Virus record (IMG/VR): IMGVR_UViG_3300048597_000032
Location: 1 to 40,827 of that record
Reading direction: 5' to 3' (one strand)
From: a virus
Length of the DNA stretch: 40,827 nucleotides
Below the pieces are notes generated by a model. That model was given only the letters and a program-made list of their open reading frames with translations, was not told where the DNA came from and made no database searches. Both the position numbers and the translations under genes were made by a program. Below are positions 27,960-37,173 of this stretch, piece by piece; position 1 is the first letter of the stretch, and each line of letters begins with the position of its first letter.

Positions 27960-28172
27960 TCACCCGAAGAGGTCCGGGCGAAGGTCTTTGGCCTTCACCT
28001 TCCCTTGGGTGACTTCCTCAATCTTCTTGGCAGTCTCGCCAGAAACGCCGGTCTGCCCCGCCTGCCATAAACGCACCGCTTCGGTCGAGACGCCTAGAGC
28101 CTCTGCGATCTGCGTACGTGTACGACCCACGTGTTTGAGTGCTGCATCAATTGCGGTAGGCATATGGAACAT
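27960..28172 (-). CDS. Cro-like / YdaS-like transcriptional regulator
   Basis: A 70-aa single HTH protein: HMPTAIDAALKHVGRTRTQI, then AEALGVSTEAVRLWQAG as the HTH core, and ETAKKIEEVTQGKVKAKDLR. The pattern with TGVSGETAKKIEEVTQG matches Cro/YdaS-like regulators of lambdoid phages. Starts at 28172 and 28163 are both possible. It is divergent from the CI-like gene across a 64-bp operator region and begins the leftward early operon. It would favour lytic development. Confidence 0.8.
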   Translation of the reverse strand: MFHMPTAIDAALKHVGRTRTQIAEALGVSTEAVRLWQAGQTGVSGETAKKIEEVTQGKVKAKDLRPDLFG

Positions 28173-28236
28173 TCACTTGTCAAGGCAAGTTGGATTGTGC
28201 CAAGTTCCGTTTGGAAACGCAAGAGGGGATTGCTGT
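28173..28236. promoter_or_regulatory. Divergent operator/promoter region of the CI-Cro switch
   Basis: The spacer between the divergent repressor genes carries two inverted repeats: ACTTG/CAAGT at 28175-28190 and CCAA/TTGG at 28200-28214. On the minus strand AACTTGGCA provides a TTGGCA-like -35 for the Cro-side promoter, with a weak ACAAGT 17 nt later. The octamer GCCAAGTT (28199-28206) occurs twice more, at 29271-29278 and 29325-29332. A plus-strand promoter for cI is not obvious. Repressor binding to these sites is inferred. Confidence 0.55.
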
Positions 28237-28647
28237 ATGGGCTGGGAATTGGTCGCCAAGATGGGCTTTATGAGCATGGGGACGCGCATAAAGGCCCGCA
28301 GGGAAGAACTAGGGGTAACCCAAGAGGCACTGGCAGAAGTGCTCGGGGTTTCCCGCGAATCTGTTCGCCTATGGGAAAACGATGAGGCCGCCCCTCGTCG
28401 GGATCGGTTGGCAGACATTGCCAATGCGCTGAAAACGTCGCCCCGTTTTCTCTTGATCGAAGAAGAGCCCGAGCGCCAGCCGGCCAGGCCGGTTTCACCC
28501 AAAGCACTGCATGTCGGGTCGCTTTGGGAGCGAATCCCCGATGAGGCCAAACGCCGAGAATTGTTTCTGGAGATCGTCCGCTATACGGCAGCTGCCGAAG
28601 ACGAATACGTTGGGCTGTTCCTCCCTGCTGCTCAGAAACAGGAATAG
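28237..28647 (+). CDS. CI-like lysogeny repressor without peptidase domain
   Basis: 136 aa from the ATG at 28237, which has AGAGGGG 8 nt upstream; the open frame reaches back to 27916 but through cro. Residues 15-70 form an XRE helix-turn-helix (MGTRIKARREELGVTQEALA; EVLGVSRESVRLWENDEAAP; LADIANALKTSPRFLLI). The C-terminal part (WERIPDEAKRRELFLEIVRY) is a short helical oligomerisation segment. There is no S24/LexA-like peptidase Ser-Lys region, so RecA-driven self-cleavage is unlikely and induction must use another route, for example the Cro-like protein or the nearby minus-strand RNA. Confidence 0.8.
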   Translation: MGWELVAKMGFMSMGTRIKARREELGVTQEALAEVLGVSRESVRLWENDEAAPRRDRLADIANALKTSPRFLLIEEEPERQPARPVSPKALHVGSLWERIPDEAKRRELFLEIVRYTAAAEDEYVGLFLPAAQKQE

Positions 28648-28943
28648 GCAAGCCAAGGGGTGATGGGGACCCCTTTGGCTCCGGGTTGATCCCCTCGGCC
28701 CTCGCTCTTCGCGGCAGATTCTTCTTCCAGCGGCCCCGTCAACTCCGGTGGGGTACTCCGGTTATCACCTTTCTCCGCTGTTCCTGGTGGTCCCTCTGCA
28801 AGGCCACCTGCGCCGGCTTGCCAGTTAGCGCGCCCCCTGTCCTGAGTGCCCCCGAGGGTTCGGGCATTAGCTAACGCGCTCTGACGACCGTCAGTTGTTT
28901 TGCTGGCGAGGCCGCGCGCTACTGCGGCTCCCAATCCACGCAT
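28632..28943 (-). CDS. Possible 103-aa ORF at the 3' side of the structured RNA
   Basis: If the minus-strand RNA extends past 28880 it could carry this frame. It starts MRGLGAAVARGLASKTTDGR, is rich in Gly, Ala, Arg and Glu (LEEESAAKSEGRGDQPGAKG), has an AAGGGG about 11 nt before the ATG, and runs into the end of cI in antisense. Codon third positions are only mildly GC-rich, and its first 20 codons include an arm of helix B. The structure could be a long leader controlling it, or the frame may be accidental. Confidence 0.25.
   Translation of the reverse strand: MRGLGAAVARGLASKTTDGRQSALANARTLGGTQDRGRANWQAGAGGLAEGPPGTAEKGDNRSTPPELTGPLEEESAAKSEGRGDQPGAKGVPITPWLAYSCF
28650..28681. terminator. 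Hairpin at the 3' end of cI
   Basis: AGCCAAGGGGT (28651-28661) pairs with ACCCCTTTGGCT (28669-28680), with one bulged T. The T-tract is poor in both directions. It may end cI transcription on the plus strand, the minus-strand RNA described below, or both. Confidence 0.5.
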
Positions 28944-29240
28944 TGCTGCGTCCCCTTGCGGAGCTAACCGGCACGCCGCCCGAAGCGCCGTTCTTAGCGG
29001 TCGCAGCTGCGGATTTCTAATCCGCGCGGCGTATGGGCCTAGCCGTTAGGCGTGTCTGCTTTCCACGCCGCTCGCCAGCAAAACAACCGACCCCGCCAAT
29101 GCAAAAGCCCACAAGGCCTGAGACGGGGTGGAATCGGTACAGACGCGCGATGGTGTCCGCACGGGGATAACTCCCCGTCCCGTCCCAGAGCTTGTGGGCT
29201 CTAGTGGTTCATCGCACGCATATACCGATTCCACTCGGTA
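28880..29240 (-). ncRNA. Candidate structured noncoding RNA (possibly new), minus strand
   Basis: A minus-strand promoter (29247-29275) feeds directly into strong structure. Helix A: 29211-29234 with 29128-29151, 20 of 24 Watson-Crick pairs; three of the four mismatches become G-U only in a minus-strand RNA. Inside it lie hairpins 29187-29202 and 29161-29178. The loop of the first is complementary to 29107-29115 (GCCCACAAG with CTTGTGGGC), giving a possible pseudoknot. Helix B: 29071-29091 with 28890-28910, 21 nt, whose single mismatch is also G-U on the minus strand. Further hairpins (29037-29051, 29049-29069, 29009-29025) lie within B, and the first two are mutually exclusive. The RNA may continue to about 28650. 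It matches no family I recognise. Confidence 0.55.
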
Positions 29241-29246
29241 GCGCGG

Positions 29247-29275
29247 ATTAGACACTGTAAGAAACCCCATGCCAA
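29247..29275 (-). promoter_or_regulatory. Promoter for the minus-strand structured RNA
   Basis: On the minus strand TTGGCA (29275-29270) is followed after exactly 17 bp by TCTAAT (29252-29247). Each hexamer matches the sigma-70 consensus at five of six bases. The predicted start, near 29240, falls just before the first arm of helix A. The -35 overlaps a GCCAAGTT octamer that also occurs at the cro promoter, suggesting shared control. Confidence 0.65.
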
Positions 29276-29313: not shown

Positions 29314-29365
29314 TTGGCATATTCGCCAAGTTGCGCTTGCTTGTTCCAAACGTTGCTTGTAAAGT
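29314..29365 (+). promoter_or_regulatory. Operator palindrome and promoter of the rightward early operon
   Basis: A perfect inverted repeat TTGGC/GCCAA with a 6-bp centre lies at 29314-29329. Just downstream a plus-strand promoter can be drawn: TTGCTT (29337-29342), 17 bp, TAAAGT (29360-29365). Start would be near 29372, upstream of AGGAG and the ATG at 29414. Bases 29276-29313 contain nothing I can name. Confidence 0.5.
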
Positions 29366-29413
29366 CTCTCCATCGACACGGCGCACACACAAAGCGCCAC
29401 AGGAGAGCAGCAA

Positions 29414-29764
29414 ATGAACGCCCCCAGCCTCATCCGCCAGCGTGCGGCAGAACTCCTGGCAGAGCTTGCCTACAACCGCGACGTTGAATGCGACTACGAC
29501 GGCAAGCGGCAGAAGTTTGGCCCTCTGCTGACCCGCTTTGTCCTTGAAGCGATTACCGACCGGGACATGCAGGCAGTCGTGGAATGCGCCGTCAAGGATG
29601 ATGCCCATGAGACCCACGACAAGCTCATGCGGGAGATCAAGATTCAAGCCGAAGTGATTGCTGAGGGTGAACTACCGGACCCGTACCAACGGGAAGTCGA
29701 ACGGCGCCAGGCCGCAGCGGTGGACGCTGAGATTGAGGCGCGGAAGTATCAGGAGGTTATGTGA
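29414..29764 (+). CDS. First rightward early protein, unknown
   Basis: A 116-aa charged helical protein: MNAPSLIRQRAAELLAELAY, then DYDGKRQKFGPLLTRFVLEA and AVDAEIEARKYQEVM at the end. A clear AGGAG is 9 nt before the ATG. No domain is recognised. As the first gene of the early operon it is likely made soon after infection. GTGA couples it to the next gene. Confidence 0.65.
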   Translation: MNAPSLIRQRAAELLAELAYNRDVECDYDGKRQKFGPLLTRFVLEAITDRDMQAVVECAVKDDAHETHDKLMREIKIQAEVIAEGELPDPYQREVERRQAAAVDAEIEARKYQEVM

Positions 29765-30063
29765 GCAAGCCCGACACCATCAAGATTGACGAAGTGACCT
29801 ACGTTCGCGCCGATGCGAAACCGACCGGCAATCGCGCCGTGGTTGTGGTTGACCGTGGCTGGATTTTCGCTGGCGACGTGACACGCAAGGATGGCCGCAT
29901 CTATCTGACGAATGCCGTGTGGGTGTTCCGCTGGTCTTCGATTGGCTTTGATGGGGTTATCAAGAACCCGGAGAAAGCCGAAATTCGCAAGATTGACGAC
30001 GTGGACATCCCTGCGCAGTCGGAAGTGTTCTGCGTGCCGGTGAAAGACGGCTGGGGCCTGTGA
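29761..30063 (+). CDS. Conserved small phage protein, unknown
   Basis: A 100-aa protein with a GTG start overlapping the upstream stop. Strands: TIKIDEVTYVRADAK, RAVVVVDRGWIFAGDVTRKD, then WVFRWSSIGFDGVIKNPEKA and EIRKIDDVDIPAQSEVF. The RAVVVVDRGWIFAGDV and NAVWVFRWSSIGF pattern is a recurrent phage family often followed by a Gly-Tyr/Asp repeat protein, as here. Function is unknown. Confidence 0.7.
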   Translation: MSKPDTIKIDEVTYVRADAKPTGNRAVVVVDRGWIFAGDVTRKDGRIYLTNAVWVFRWSSIGFDGVIKNPEKAEIRKIDDVDIPAQSEVFCVPVKDGWGL

Positions 30064-30332
30064 TGTTCCGCCCAATCGGCAACGGCAACGGCAACGGCTA
30101 CGGCGACGGCTACGGCAACGGCAACGGCAACGGCTACGGCTACGGCTACGGCTACGGCTACGGCTACGGCAACGGCAACGGCTACGGCGACGGCTACGGC
30201 GACGGCTACGGCTACGGCGACGGCAACGGCTACGGCAACGGCTACGGCTACGGCAACGGCTACGGCTACGGCGACGGCTACGGCTACGGCGACGGCAACG
30301 GCGACGGCACTGCTGGAAAGGTTGGCAAATGA
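30063..30332 (+). CDS. Gly-X repeat protein (X = Tyr, Asn or Asp)
   Basis: 89 aa from the ATG at 30063. After MFRPIG the protein is a run of nearly 40 GX dipeptides in which X is only Y, N or D, ending TAGKVGK. At DNA level this is a 6-nt array GGC-NAC in which the only variable base is the first of the NAC codon (T, A or G; no C). The low-complexity array is directly visible. Slippage between repeats could change its length between isolates. Stacking, phase-separation or adhesion roles are speculation. Confidence 0.65.
   Translation: MFRPIGNGNGNGYGDGYGNGNGNGYGYGYGYGYGYGNGNGYGDGYGDGYGYGDGNGYGNGYGYGNGYGYGDGYGYGDGNGDGTAGKVGK
30081..30307 (+). repeat. Hexanucleotide microsatellite GGCNAC
   Basis: About 38 tandem 6-nt units differ only at one base (T, A or G) per unit. 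All units are in frame with the Gly-X protein, and insertions or deletions of whole units keep the frame. Confidence 0.9.
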
Positions 30333-31512: not shown

Positions 31513-32093
31513 ACAAGAGCGAATCCATTGCGAAACTCGCAGAAGCCTGCGCCAAGGCACAGGCCAAGATGGTCAACCCAAAGCTTGACCGGGTGAATCC
31601 GCACTTCAAGAGCAAGTTCGCAAGCCTTGCCGCCGTGCGCGATGTGGTTGTGCCCGCCTATGCCTCTTGCGGGGTGTCCGTGTCGCAAGACGTGACGGTT
31701 GAGGGCGGGGCAGTTCACTGCCGCACGATCCTCGTTCATGGGGAGTCGGGCGAATGGATGGAGTACGGCCCGCTGGTAATCGCCACCCAGGCGACGGCCC
31801 ATGCCATCGGCTCTGCGATTTCCTACGCAAAGCGTTATCAGTTGATGGCGGTGGCGTGCGTGGTCGGGGATGAGGACGACGACGGCAACGCCGCGTCTGC
31901 CAAGCCGGAAGCTGCCCAGCCCGACCCGTTTACCCATGACCCGGCGCTAGTCGGTGGACTGAAGTCCGCCAAGACCCTGCCGGAACTGAGCAAGGCATGG
32001 AATGCCATCCCGACGAATGTCCGGGCAAGGTATGCCGACCTGAAGGACGCAGAAAAACAGCGCATTACCGAAAGCGAGGTCGCCCATGCCTAA
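31509..32093 (+). CDS. erf: ERF-family single-strand annealing recombinase
   Basis: 194 aa from the GTG at 31509 (GTGA overlap with the HNH gene); a GTG at 31503 is an alternative. The ERF core is visible: LDRVNPHFKSKFASLAAVRD (26-45), VVVPAYASCGVSVSQDVTVE, CRTILVHGESGEWMEYGPLV and QATAHAIGSAISYAKRYQLM, with the Y-A-K-R-Y motif. It would anneal single strands during phage recombination, working with the exonuclease and SSB-like genes that follow. An acidic linker separates a C-terminal helical domain. Confidence 0.88.
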   Translation: MNKSESIAKLAEACAKAQAKMVNPKLDRVNPHFKSKFASLAAVRDVVVPAYASCGVSVSQDVTVEGGAVHCRTILVHGESGEWMEYGPLVIATQATAHAIGSAISYAKRYQLMAVACVVGDEDDDGNAASAKPEAAQPDPFTHDPALVGGLKSAKTLPELSKAWNAIPTNVRARYADLKDAEKQRITESEVAHA

Positions 32094-32718
32094 CGACGCC
32101 CCCCAGCAATCCGGCGCCTGGCTCCGTCAGCGTCTCGGCTGGTGTACTGCCTCACGGATGAAGGACGTTCTGGCCGTCCTGAAAAACGGCAAGCCTTCGG
32201 AGGCGCGGAACAAATACATGATGGAACTGGTGGCGGAGCGCATGACGGATAACGTCATGGAACGCTTCGTAACCGATGCCATGCAACACGGCATCGACCA
32301 AGAGCCCCACGCTGTTGCCGCCTATGAGGCTCTGTCCGGCGAACTGACGGAGACCTGCGGGTTCTTCCCTCACCCTCGGATTGAGTTCTTCGGGGCAACG
32401 CCTGACCGGCTGTTGGGCGAGGATGGTCTAGTGGAGTGCAAGTGCCCGTCAACCATCAAGTTCATTGAATGGCGGCGGGAAGGCGTTGTGCCTGACGAGC
32501 ACAAGCCGCAGATGCTGGCCCAGCTGGCCTGTACCGGCAGGAAGTACGTGGACTTTGTGGCGTTCGATCCCCGCGTGTTGAACCCTGATGCGCGGTTGTT
32601 CGTTCGCCGGTTTGAGCCCTCGCAAGAGGAAATCGCAGCGGTCGAGAAAGCGGCAGAGCAGTTCCTTGCCGAAGTGGATGCGCTGTTTGAGTTGGTCAAC
32701 TATGGGAAGGCAGCGTAA
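32086..32718 (+). CDS. YqaJ/lambda-type recombination exonuclease
   Basis: A 210-aa nuclease. It opens AWLRQRLGWCTASRMKDVLA, the W...R.G..TAS motif of YqaJ-like enzymes. GIDQEPHAVAAYE (69-81) supplies the first acidic ligand. GATPDRLLGEDGLVECKCPS (103-122) contains the D..ExK site (D107, E117, K119), and HKPQMLAQLACTGRKYVDFV supplies the QxxxxM/Y helix. It should degrade the 5' strand of duplex ends and feed the ERF protein, whose gene overlaps its start by 8 nt. Confidence 0.9.
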   Translation: MPNDAPQQSGAWLRQRLGWCTASRMKDVLAVLKNGKPSEARNKYMMELVAERMTDNVMERFVTDAMQHGIDQEPHAVAAYEALSGELTETCGFFPHPRIEFFGATPDRLLGEDGLVECKCPSTIKFIEWRREGVVPDEHKPQMLAQLACTGRKYVDFVAFDPRVLNPDARLFVRRFEPSQEEIAAVEKAAEQFLAEVDALFELVNYGKAA

Positions 32719-32986: not shown

Positions 32987-33085
32987 GAGCGGATGGCGTA
33001 GTGGGAGCGCAGCAAGTCCGAGACACCTAAACGGTGGAGTAGGCACCCCAAATGGCAGGCGTCGGTTCGATTCCGGCTCCGCTCA
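32987..33085 (+). tRNA. tRNA-like element with oversized anticodon/variable domain
   Basis: Acceptor GAGCGGA (32987-32993) pairs perfectly with TCCGCTC (33078-33084). The D-arm is canonical (T8, G9, GCGT, loop AGTGGGA, GCGC), and the T-arm is canonical (GTCGG, TTCGATT, CCGGC). Between D and T arms lie 50 nt instead of about 23 (or up to about 38 in class II), with no stem able to hold a seven-base anticodon loop with U33. Local hairpins CACC/GGTG and GGTG/CACC are possible instead. It may be a decayed tRNA, a tRNA mimic or a tRNA with an insertion. The CCA end is not encoded. Confidence 0.6.
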
Positions 33086-33101: not shown

Positions 33102-33458
33102 ATGAAAAAGACCATCGCGGCACTAGCTCTATACGCTTTTAGCGTAGCCCATGCCAATGTCCCTAACCAGGGCGGCAACTTCTACGACGGGAACCGCCTG
33201 TTTCAACTCTGCACAAGTTCCGTTGCCAGCGAACAGGCTGTCTGCCTTGGCTACGTCATTGCCGTGGCTGACACCAGTCGCACGCGGAACTGTTCGCCGT
33301 CCACGATCAAGTCCGGGCAACTTCGGGATGTTGTGATTCAGTTTCTCTCAAGCAACCCCGCCCATCGGCATGAGGACGCGGACACTTTGGTAGAACTGGC
33401 AATCCATAACGCATGGCCTTGCCAGAGGCAACAGAACCCCGCGAGGAATTCGCTGTGA
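33102..33458 (+). CDS. Secreted Rap1a/Tai-like protein
   Basis: A 118-aa protein with a signal peptide (MKKTIAALALYAFSVAHA) and four Cys suited to periplasmic disulfides. The pattern NRLFQLCTSS, then CLGYVIAVADT, a Pro-x-T-I-K segment, LRDVVIQFLSSNPAHRHEDA and LVELAIHNAWPC, matches the Rap1a/Tai immunity family. AGGA precedes the ATG. In prophages such proteins could alter the cell envelope or protect lysogens, but no target is visible. Confidence 0.75.
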   Translation: MKKTIAALALYAFSVAHANVPNQGGNFYDGNRLFQLCTSSVASEQAVCLGYVIAVADTSRTRNCSPSTIKSGQLRDVVIQFLSSNPAHRHEDADTLVELAIHNAWPCQRQQNPARNSL

Positions 33459-37013: not shown

Positions 37014-37020
37014 AGGGAAA

Positions 37021-37061
37021 GCCGGGATGGCGGAACTGGTAGACGCACGGGACTCAAAATC
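37021..37061 (+). other. attP: Probable attP core: 5' half of a tRNA-Leu(CAA)
   Basis: The sequence starts GCCGGGATGGCGGAACTGGT and continues AGACGCACGGGACTCAAAAT, reproducing the acceptor 5' strand, the complete D-arm and the anticodon loop CTCAAAA of a bacterial tRNA-Leu(CAA). Similarity stops at the 3' side of the anticodon stem, and no matching T-arm or acceptor 3' strand follows. Its place directly after int and the partial tRNA identity mark it as the attachment core, with crossover likely at the anticodon loop. Bases 37062-37173 hold no gene. One weak hairpin, CGCCC/GGGCG, is near 37130. Confidence 0.75.
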
Positions 37062-37173
37062 TTCCGTCCTACGGGGACCAGAAGAACCCTCAGAGGCAGG
37101 CGTGCCCACAATTGCCCCTAAAACGCCCGAGGGTGGGCGGGAAATGGGGAAAATTGCCAAGAGGTTATAGGCC

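Follow-up and report, generated by a model that had tools for sequence, protein, structure and literature searches.

Two long interleaved helices in a predicted phage leader RNA and at seven other phage loci

Introduction

Phage control-region leaders with alternative pairings and premature termination include the immunity leader and CI RNA of P4 and the c4 RNA of P1. The put RNAs of HK022, which act on polymerase in cis, are structured elements at the very start of the early transcript; they are about 70 nt long and consist of two simple hairpins, with no terminator of their own. GOLLD and ROOL are phage RNAs that often lie near tRNA islands and contain pseudoknots (PMC12286853). IsrK of prophage Gifsy-1 is reported to exist in a short and a long form, because some transcripts pass its terminator and continue into the mRNA downstream (PMC4825925). 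The Betaproteobacteria-1 RNA (RF02932) is represented in Rfam by a model of 120 positions with a cut-off of 49.4 bits.

Here we describe a structured region of a viral sequence, IMG/VR record IMGVR_UViG_3300048597_000032 (positions 1 to 40,827; all 40,827 nt were analysed and are called the window below). The window encodes a podovirus-like portal protein with closest relatives about 34% identical, and the closest chromosomal relatives of its terminase lie mostly within Burkholderiales prophages. Its minus strand carries two long helices whose arms interleave and whose 3' arms abut, behind a promoter-like site and ahead of a U-run, and the same layout is present at seven other phage loci, among which compensatory changes are found. 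The predicted RNA matched no Rfam family, and the initial annotation named no precedent with this layout; the architecture was in no Rfam family searched and was not named in the full-text literature searched (open papers only). We consider the architecture novel, and it extends a known Rfam RNA, RF02932.

Results

The control region of the window

The structured region sits between a repressor gene and a plus-strand early operon that begins at 29414 and contains HNH, Erf and exonuclease genes. The landmarks of this region are as follows.

28237-28647, plus strand: HTH repressor (Pfam HTH_3, E 2.6e-15; PHROG transcriptional regulator), convergent with the minus-strand RNA
27960-28172, minus strand: Cro-like HTH protein of the Pfam YdaS_toxin/P22_Cro type, divergent from the repressor
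27960-27981, minus strand: intrinsic terminator with a 9-bp stem and U8, at the end of the cro-like gene
29327-29339 and 29347-29359, plus strand: two operator-like sites, CAAGN5CTTG, upstream of the plus-strand early operon

Similar operator-like sites are present at 28201-28213 and 28220-28232. The pattern occurs 23 times across the window against 19.9 expected, and in view of this lack of enrichment the sites are treated as a lead only.

Several other features of the early region and its surroundings were recorded. An early ORF at 30060-30332 is built of Gly-Tyr/Asn/Asp repeats, and a long Ala-Thr repeat ORF lies in the early region of a related phage (L114, 1020-2486). The early operon also encodes a Rap1a-like immunity protein (33102-33458, Pfam PF18602) with a relative in L132 (4980-5300), and a tRNA match of 42 bits at 32987-33085 is unusually long at 99 bases. 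The ribosome-binding leader ACAGGAGAGCAGCAAATG is identical before different early genes in the window (29393-29416), L114 (692-715), L116 (2473-2491) and L117 (4222-4240), contigs that are unrelated. After the integrase gene, at 37020-37150, an ORF translation, GMAELVDARDSKSSVLR, is typical of tRNA genes; the stretch probably represents the attP core, with its counterpart in a tRNA of the host.

Long helices and strand-specific folding

The initial annotation had proposed a large structured minus-strand RNA that starts near 29240 behind a promoter (TTGGCA/TCTAAT, 17-bp spacing) and contains two long helices, A and B. Both helices are in the sequence as described, the promoter-like site is present, and together with the fold they support such an RNA with its predicted start. 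A search for inverted repeats added a third pair, 29106-29127 with 29179-29200, which can be extended to 24 pairs and is called helix C (22-24 bp). The elements, in the order of the minus-strand RNA, are listed below.

29247-29275, minus strand: promoter-like site TTGGCA-17-TCTAAT, 10/12 consensus matches, with the -10 element ending 12 nt before helix A
29210-29234, minus strand: 5' arm of helix A (A5'), pairing with 29128-29152
29179-29202, minus strand: 5' arm of helix C (C5'), containing the hairpin loop CCCACAAG of the initial annotation
29161-29178, minus strand: small hairpin ACGGGGAGUUAUCCCCGU between C5' and A3', seen in folds
29128-29152, minus strand: 3' arm of helix A (A3'), with 24/25 positions paired in the RNA
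29103-29127, minus strand: 3' arm of helix C (C3'), directly abutting A3' (0 nt) and ending in UUUU (29106-29103), terminator-like
29071-29091, minus strand: 5' arm of helix B, pairing with 28890-28910
28911-29070, minus strand: inner part of the helix-B domain, which folds into several hairpins and is specific to this phage
28890-28910, minus strand: 3' arm of helix B, with 21/21 positions paired in the RNA

The best promoter score anywhere in a shuffled 70-mer was as high as that of the site at 29247-29275 in 0.6% of cases. A strict promoter scan reports no site in the region because it requires A at position 2 of the -10 element.

Among all minus-strand helices of the window, helix A had the highest score (24.1), followed by helix C (23.1) and helix B (22.6), so that the top three helices in 40.8 kb all fall inside 350 bases; in 15 whole-window shuffles the best helix scored 22.8 and the next 21.9. 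The comparison with dinucleotide-shuffled sequence that the initial annotation proposed for 28640-29260 gave a folding energy on the minus strand of -300.8 kcal/mol against -258.0 +/- 5.7 kcal/mol (z -7.6), and none of the 20 shuffles folded as well. Most of this excess is located in domain 1 (29240-29095), for which z is -5.7 when the minus strand is folded and -4.3 for the plus strand. At all five loci tested, the RNA strand of domain 1 gave z values between -5.7 and -9.7, and the opposite strand folded less well. For the helix-B domain alone, comparison with shuffles does not favour the minus strand (z -3.6, against -5.1 for the plus strand); it is domain 1 that supports the strand call. 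It was also correctly noted that the C-A and A-C mismatches of helices A and B become G-U in a minus-strand RNA; all of these transitions agree, and helix C adds two that are G-U solely on the minus strand, for a total of six out of six over the three helices.

The minus-strand ORFs at 28632-28943 and 29046-29270 were rejected as protein-coding on codon usage, and every frame in the region had a codon score below that of every real phage gene tested, supporting the prediction that the region is non-coding.

Helix C interleaves with helix A

On the minus-strand RNA the arms follow in the order A5', C5', A3', C3', so that helix C interleaves with helix A, and C3' starts at the base following A3', with no spacer in the window. 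The first 130 bases of the RNA would thus consist of two long interleaved helices up to a terminator-like U-run, which in the window is short (UUUU, then GC). An earlier proposal of a pseudoknot between a hairpin loop and 29107-29115 was right about the pairing and too narrow about its extent, as the 9 bp are the outer end of helix C.

In a nested model of 29240-29095, a conformer with helix A (-74.1 kcal/mol) and one with helix C (-71.1 kcal/mol) are nearly equal, 3 kcal/mol apart. The two helices have no base in common and so are not mutually exclusive by sequence, and a side-by-side pseudoknot holding both is geometrically conceivable. Two pairing partners exist for A5' at two of the loci described below, L117 and L146.

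Relatives identified by gene order and architecture

Searches based on sequence similarity returned the window itself or nothing. BLAST of the region gave no match in phages or plasmids and none at E<=1e-4 in 399 Burkholderiales genomes, and a single-sequence covariance model of domain 1 (R1) matched only the window, showing that sequence-bound models fail here. Neither the first protein ORF nor the repressor was a useful bait. Queries built from relatives behaved similarly: a model of the module shared by L117, L132 and L133 (R2) had no match in 379 Burkholderiales genomes, the L133 RNA as a DNA query had none in 399 genomes, and the L031 RNA had none in 379.

A number of candidates were examined and rejected. 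Weak DNA matches occurred in 30 genomes or records, of which the best two were an early-gene ribosome-binding site (L114) and an unrelated chromosomal stretch (G013). Patterns built on the exact helix-B arms (four contigs) and on the helix-C ends (12 contigs) matched only unrelated contigs. Four phages that share the exonuclease (L155-L158: MW202713, Piluca, Tr60_Ab31 and Pam1) had no convincing instance of the architecture, and loose-scan matches in L016, L030, L103/L090 and L040 were not accepted because the U-run was absent or the geometry wrong. Separately, L090 (9064-9282) and L103 (9080-9250), two betaproteobacterial prophages, contain very long inverted repeats, with arms of 46-70 nt and a loop of about 80 nt, roughly 0.9 kb upstream of the terminase gene.

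With the early exonuclease (32086-32718) as bait, two contigs were found whose early genes are arranged as in the window, L132 and L133. Each has, at the corresponding position, a -10 element, A5', C5', A3' and C3', followed by UUUUU or UUUUUU, in sequence unrelated to that of the window. Their downstream non-coding block is also found in L117, which has a near-consensus promoter (TTGACA-18-TAGAAT) and a domain with zero spacer. A match to L117 was then found in GenBank MW202545 (L146); there, six tRNA genes precede the domain. A scan for the architecture itself, interleaved helices plus U-run, over all fetched sequence (3.1 Mb, both strands) identified L031 and L048, each with a promoter, zero spacer and UUUUUU. 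An eighth instance was found after the primase gene of MW202426 (L159).

The layout of promoter, A5', C5', A3', C3' and U-run is therefore present in the window and in at least seven other phage loci from six lineages (L133, L132, L117, L146, L031, L048 and L159; L031 and L048 are close kin), with A5' near the promoter and the U-run after C3' in all eight. The distance from the -10 element to A5' is 11-14 nt in L117, L031, L048 and L159, about 14-16 nt in L146, 19 nt in L133 and 36 nt in L132. The spacer between A3' and C3' is 0 nt in the window, L117, L031, L048 and L159, 1 nt in L146, 5 nt in L133 and 32 nt in L132. The U-run is UUUU in the window and 5-7 U in the relatives, and the promoter-like site upstream of A5' is significant in the window, L117, L146, L031 and L048. 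Homology of the window's domain 1 to the others, with which it has no alignable sequence, is suggested by architecture, promoter spacing, position and a downstream hairpin described below. In three or four relatives the RNA would be an early-operon leader outside the immunity region; in L132 and L133 the domain lies in the early region with no adjoining repressor gene.

Compensatory changes and a 5'-end helix

The compensating changes that the initial annotation had suggested seeking were found in the two alignable pairs of relatives, six in all. Between L117 and L146 there are five double changes, four in helix C and one in helix A, along with one broken pair and one one-sided change; between L031 and L048 there is one A-U to G-C double change in helix A. 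Among the other members the arms are wholly different in sequence and the pairing is kept.

A further helix joins the 5' end to bases directly beyond the U-run in L133, L132, L117 and L146 (p 0.002, 0.017, 0.0075 and 0.001, respectively), which implies that at these four loci the functional RNA extends beyond the U-run; this helix is absent from the window (p 0.74). A scan of these four relatives from the U-run to the next gene detected no simple hairpin terminator. A minus-strand transcript of the window would meet its first such terminator after 29103 at 27981-27960.

Downstream modules and the link to RF02932

Three further elements were recognized on the minus strand of the window downstream of helix B.

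28786-28808, minus strand: hairpin X, GGUGG-CCU-UGCA-GAGGGA-CCACC, defined as a stem of 4+ bp closing CCU-N4-8-GAGGGA
28728-28780, minus strand: candidate hairpin Y, CAGCGG...CCGCUG with loop AGAAAGGUGAUAA, alike by eye in order and loop to what follows X in L117, L132 and L133
28650-28676, minus strand: 3' region with AUCACCCCUUGG, resembling by eye, in sequence, the tail element of L117, L132 and L133

In 2.9 Mb of strand sequence the hairpin X pattern occurs only in the window, L117, L132 and L133, a post hoc count in that the likeness was spotted by eye beforehand, and in all four loci the interleaved domain precedes it. This suggests homology down to at least 28808-28786. The element had been given the span 28880-29275; the structure there is confirmed, and hairpin X suggests that the element is longer. 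Its 3' end, placed at about 28645, is uncertain. Helix B and its domain interior have no homologue among the relatives, and this phage alone would carry the helix-B domain (29095-28880), as an insertion. Folded separately, the downstream modules show little excess over shuffled sequence (relatives, z -1.1 to +1.2; 28879-28650 of the window, z -0.5).

The block shared by L132, L133 and L117 directly follows the U-run (minus strand, 6241-6145 in L132 and 2282-2184 in L133; e.g. GGCCTGAATCGGCTGCGCGGAAGGAAAGACAC). No Rfam family matches this block, which may represent a separate new RNA module.

At three other loci the downstream module is RF02932, which lies about 12-80 nt beyond the interleaved domain in L146 (100 bits), L031 (88) and L048 (87); in L146 it begins just after the U-run. 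L031 and L048 had been picked by architecture alone, and cmscan afterwards placed RF02932 directly downstream, so that the architecture had predictive value in an independent test. The window, its downstream part included, has no RF02932 match by covariance model. Copies of RF02932 in Burkholderiales chromosomes (L147-L150, L153 and L154) and an RF02932-like stretch in Acidovorax phage AP1 (L160) occur without the interleaved domain, indicating that domain 1 and RF02932 are separable modules. One Burkholderiales genome (G286) carries three RF02932-like copies on different contigs (L147, L153 and L154), two of them above the cut-off. In MW202545.1, the annotated hypothetical proteins UOF78434.1 and UOF78433.1 (2947-3174 and 3168-3404) overlap the structured RNA and RF02932 and are probably spurious gene calls.

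Discussion

A possible attenuator-like leader

All eight loci have a hairpin and U-run in a constant position after the promoter, the signature of an intrinsic terminator and a feature of intrinsic attenuators. Conserved modules after the U-run, with no simple hairpin terminator before the next gene in the four relatives scanned, point to regulated read-through, as in an attenuator. We give roughly even odds to the reading that the region encodes a phage leader RNA of modular build, with two interleaved helices acting as an attenuator-like switch in its 5' domain (29240-29103); its transcription, termination, switching and regulatory purpose are what we infer from the sequence. The minus strand from 29240 to about 28645 would encode a non-coding leader in which helix A forms first, out of the earliest transcribed bases, which makes it the obvious candidate for the controlling element, and helix C with the U-run acts as a terminator-like hairpin, its C3' arm abutting A3'. 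How helices A and C share the nascent RNA would set whether polymerase stops at 29103, yielding a short RNA of about 135 nt, or reads through, and a protein, another RNA or a state of the polymerase might also contribute. Read-through would add the second structured domain and reach downstream DNA. In L117, L132, L133 and L031 it would enter the next early operon; in the window it would cross the repressor gene in antisense orientation and then cro, stopping at the terminator at 27981-27960. Against this reading, the RNA of the window has no co-directional gene directly behind it, its U-run is short, and it lacks the helix between the 5' end and the bases after the U-run.

More tentatively, the loci may together represent an undescribed phage RNA architecture, with helices of up to 22-25 bp and zero spacer, that is either a giant pseudoknot or a co-transcriptional switch, forms the 5' end of modular RNAs with 3' modules (RF02932 and others) that phages exchange, and here would gate antisense transcription through the repressor into cro. 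If domain 1 is a switch, it would offer a testable new way for phages to set the reach of early transcription; if helices A and C coexist, the pseudoknot would be of unusual size and a structural target. In either case, architecture can track such RNAs once sequence similarity is gone.

Alternative explanations

The promoter near helix A and the hairpin plus U-run in all loci would also suit a stand-alone small RNA that ends at the helix-C U-run and acts in trans as a compact pseudoknot of about 135 nt, the downstream part being a separate element, and the concentration of folding excess in domain 1 fits this as well. We regard it as unlikely, however, because in four relatives the 5' end pairs past the U-run, the gap of about 12-80 nt before the next structured module in L146, L031 and L048 leaves little room for a separate promoter, and no target complementarity was found in mRNAs of the phage itself.

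Pairing of the 5' end past the U-run would suit a large ornate RNA acting in trans in the manner of GOLLD or ROOL, with one stable, perhaps multimeric, fold in which the U-run is a linker. Multi-domain folding, a phage origin, the position of L146 beside a six-tRNA cluster and the conserved modules after the U-run are all in keeping with it. A terminator-like hairpin and U-run at a fixed place in eight of eight loci would nevertheless be surprising if the U-run were just a linker, the downstream modules taken alone show little folding excess, and GOLLD and ROOL gave no gathering-score match in the window or the relatives scanned, nor any match up to E 5 in the window, making this explanation improbable too.

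The initial annotation had cited phage immunity RNAs (c4, P4 CI and sar) as precedents, and the location beside the repressor and cro, with read-through antisense to the entire repressor gene, would be apt for an RNA that controls lysogeny by pairing with phage mRNA. This precedent is not supported: the longest complements to the phage's own transcripts (9-12 nt) do not exceed those of shuffled controls (means 8.9-11.8), the Rfam searches gave no c4, CI or sar match, and the L132 and L133 domains have no repressor gene beside them. We therefore think an immunity RNA very improbable. The c4 search does detect a C4 antisense RNA (RF01695, 53.7 bits) at 229-313 of L021, a phage related by its terminase. 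Least credible is a DNA-level element with no functional RNA (a replication origin, recombination site or regulator-binding inverted repeats), to which the long inverted repeats and a 12-bp repeat of the -10 region, inverted at 29016-29027, might be ascribed, as all six transitions in helices A, B and C give G-U on one strand only, the U-run, promoter-like site and fold strength indicate that same strand in relatives, and a simple inverted repeat has no need of the interleaved order.

Comparison with known RNAs

Compared with P4 CI and P1 c4, which are processed small RNAs with targets, the RNA predicted here has long interleaved helices and no antisense target was found for it. It resembles the HK022 put RNAs as a structured RNA at the predicted start of an early transcript and differs from them in having a terminator-like hairpin of its own. 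Like IsrK it would be a phage RNA with a terminator and short and long forms, here predicted from sequence; interleaved helices are not reported in the IsrK account, in which IsrK acts on its own read-through mRNA (PMC4825925). It shares with GOLLD and ROOL a large, phage-borne structure with pseudoknots, sometimes near tRNA clusters (PMC12286853), and with GOLLD a variable 5' part and a more conserved 3' part; unlike them, it is shorter, lacks an Rfam match, has a terminator-like U-run in mid-RNA and occupies an early-operon leader position. The closest tie is to RF02932, which in L146, L031 and L048 is the 3' module of a longer RNA whose 5' domain the Rfam model omits, so that this family gains a previously missed 5' domain and a placement in phage early leaders.
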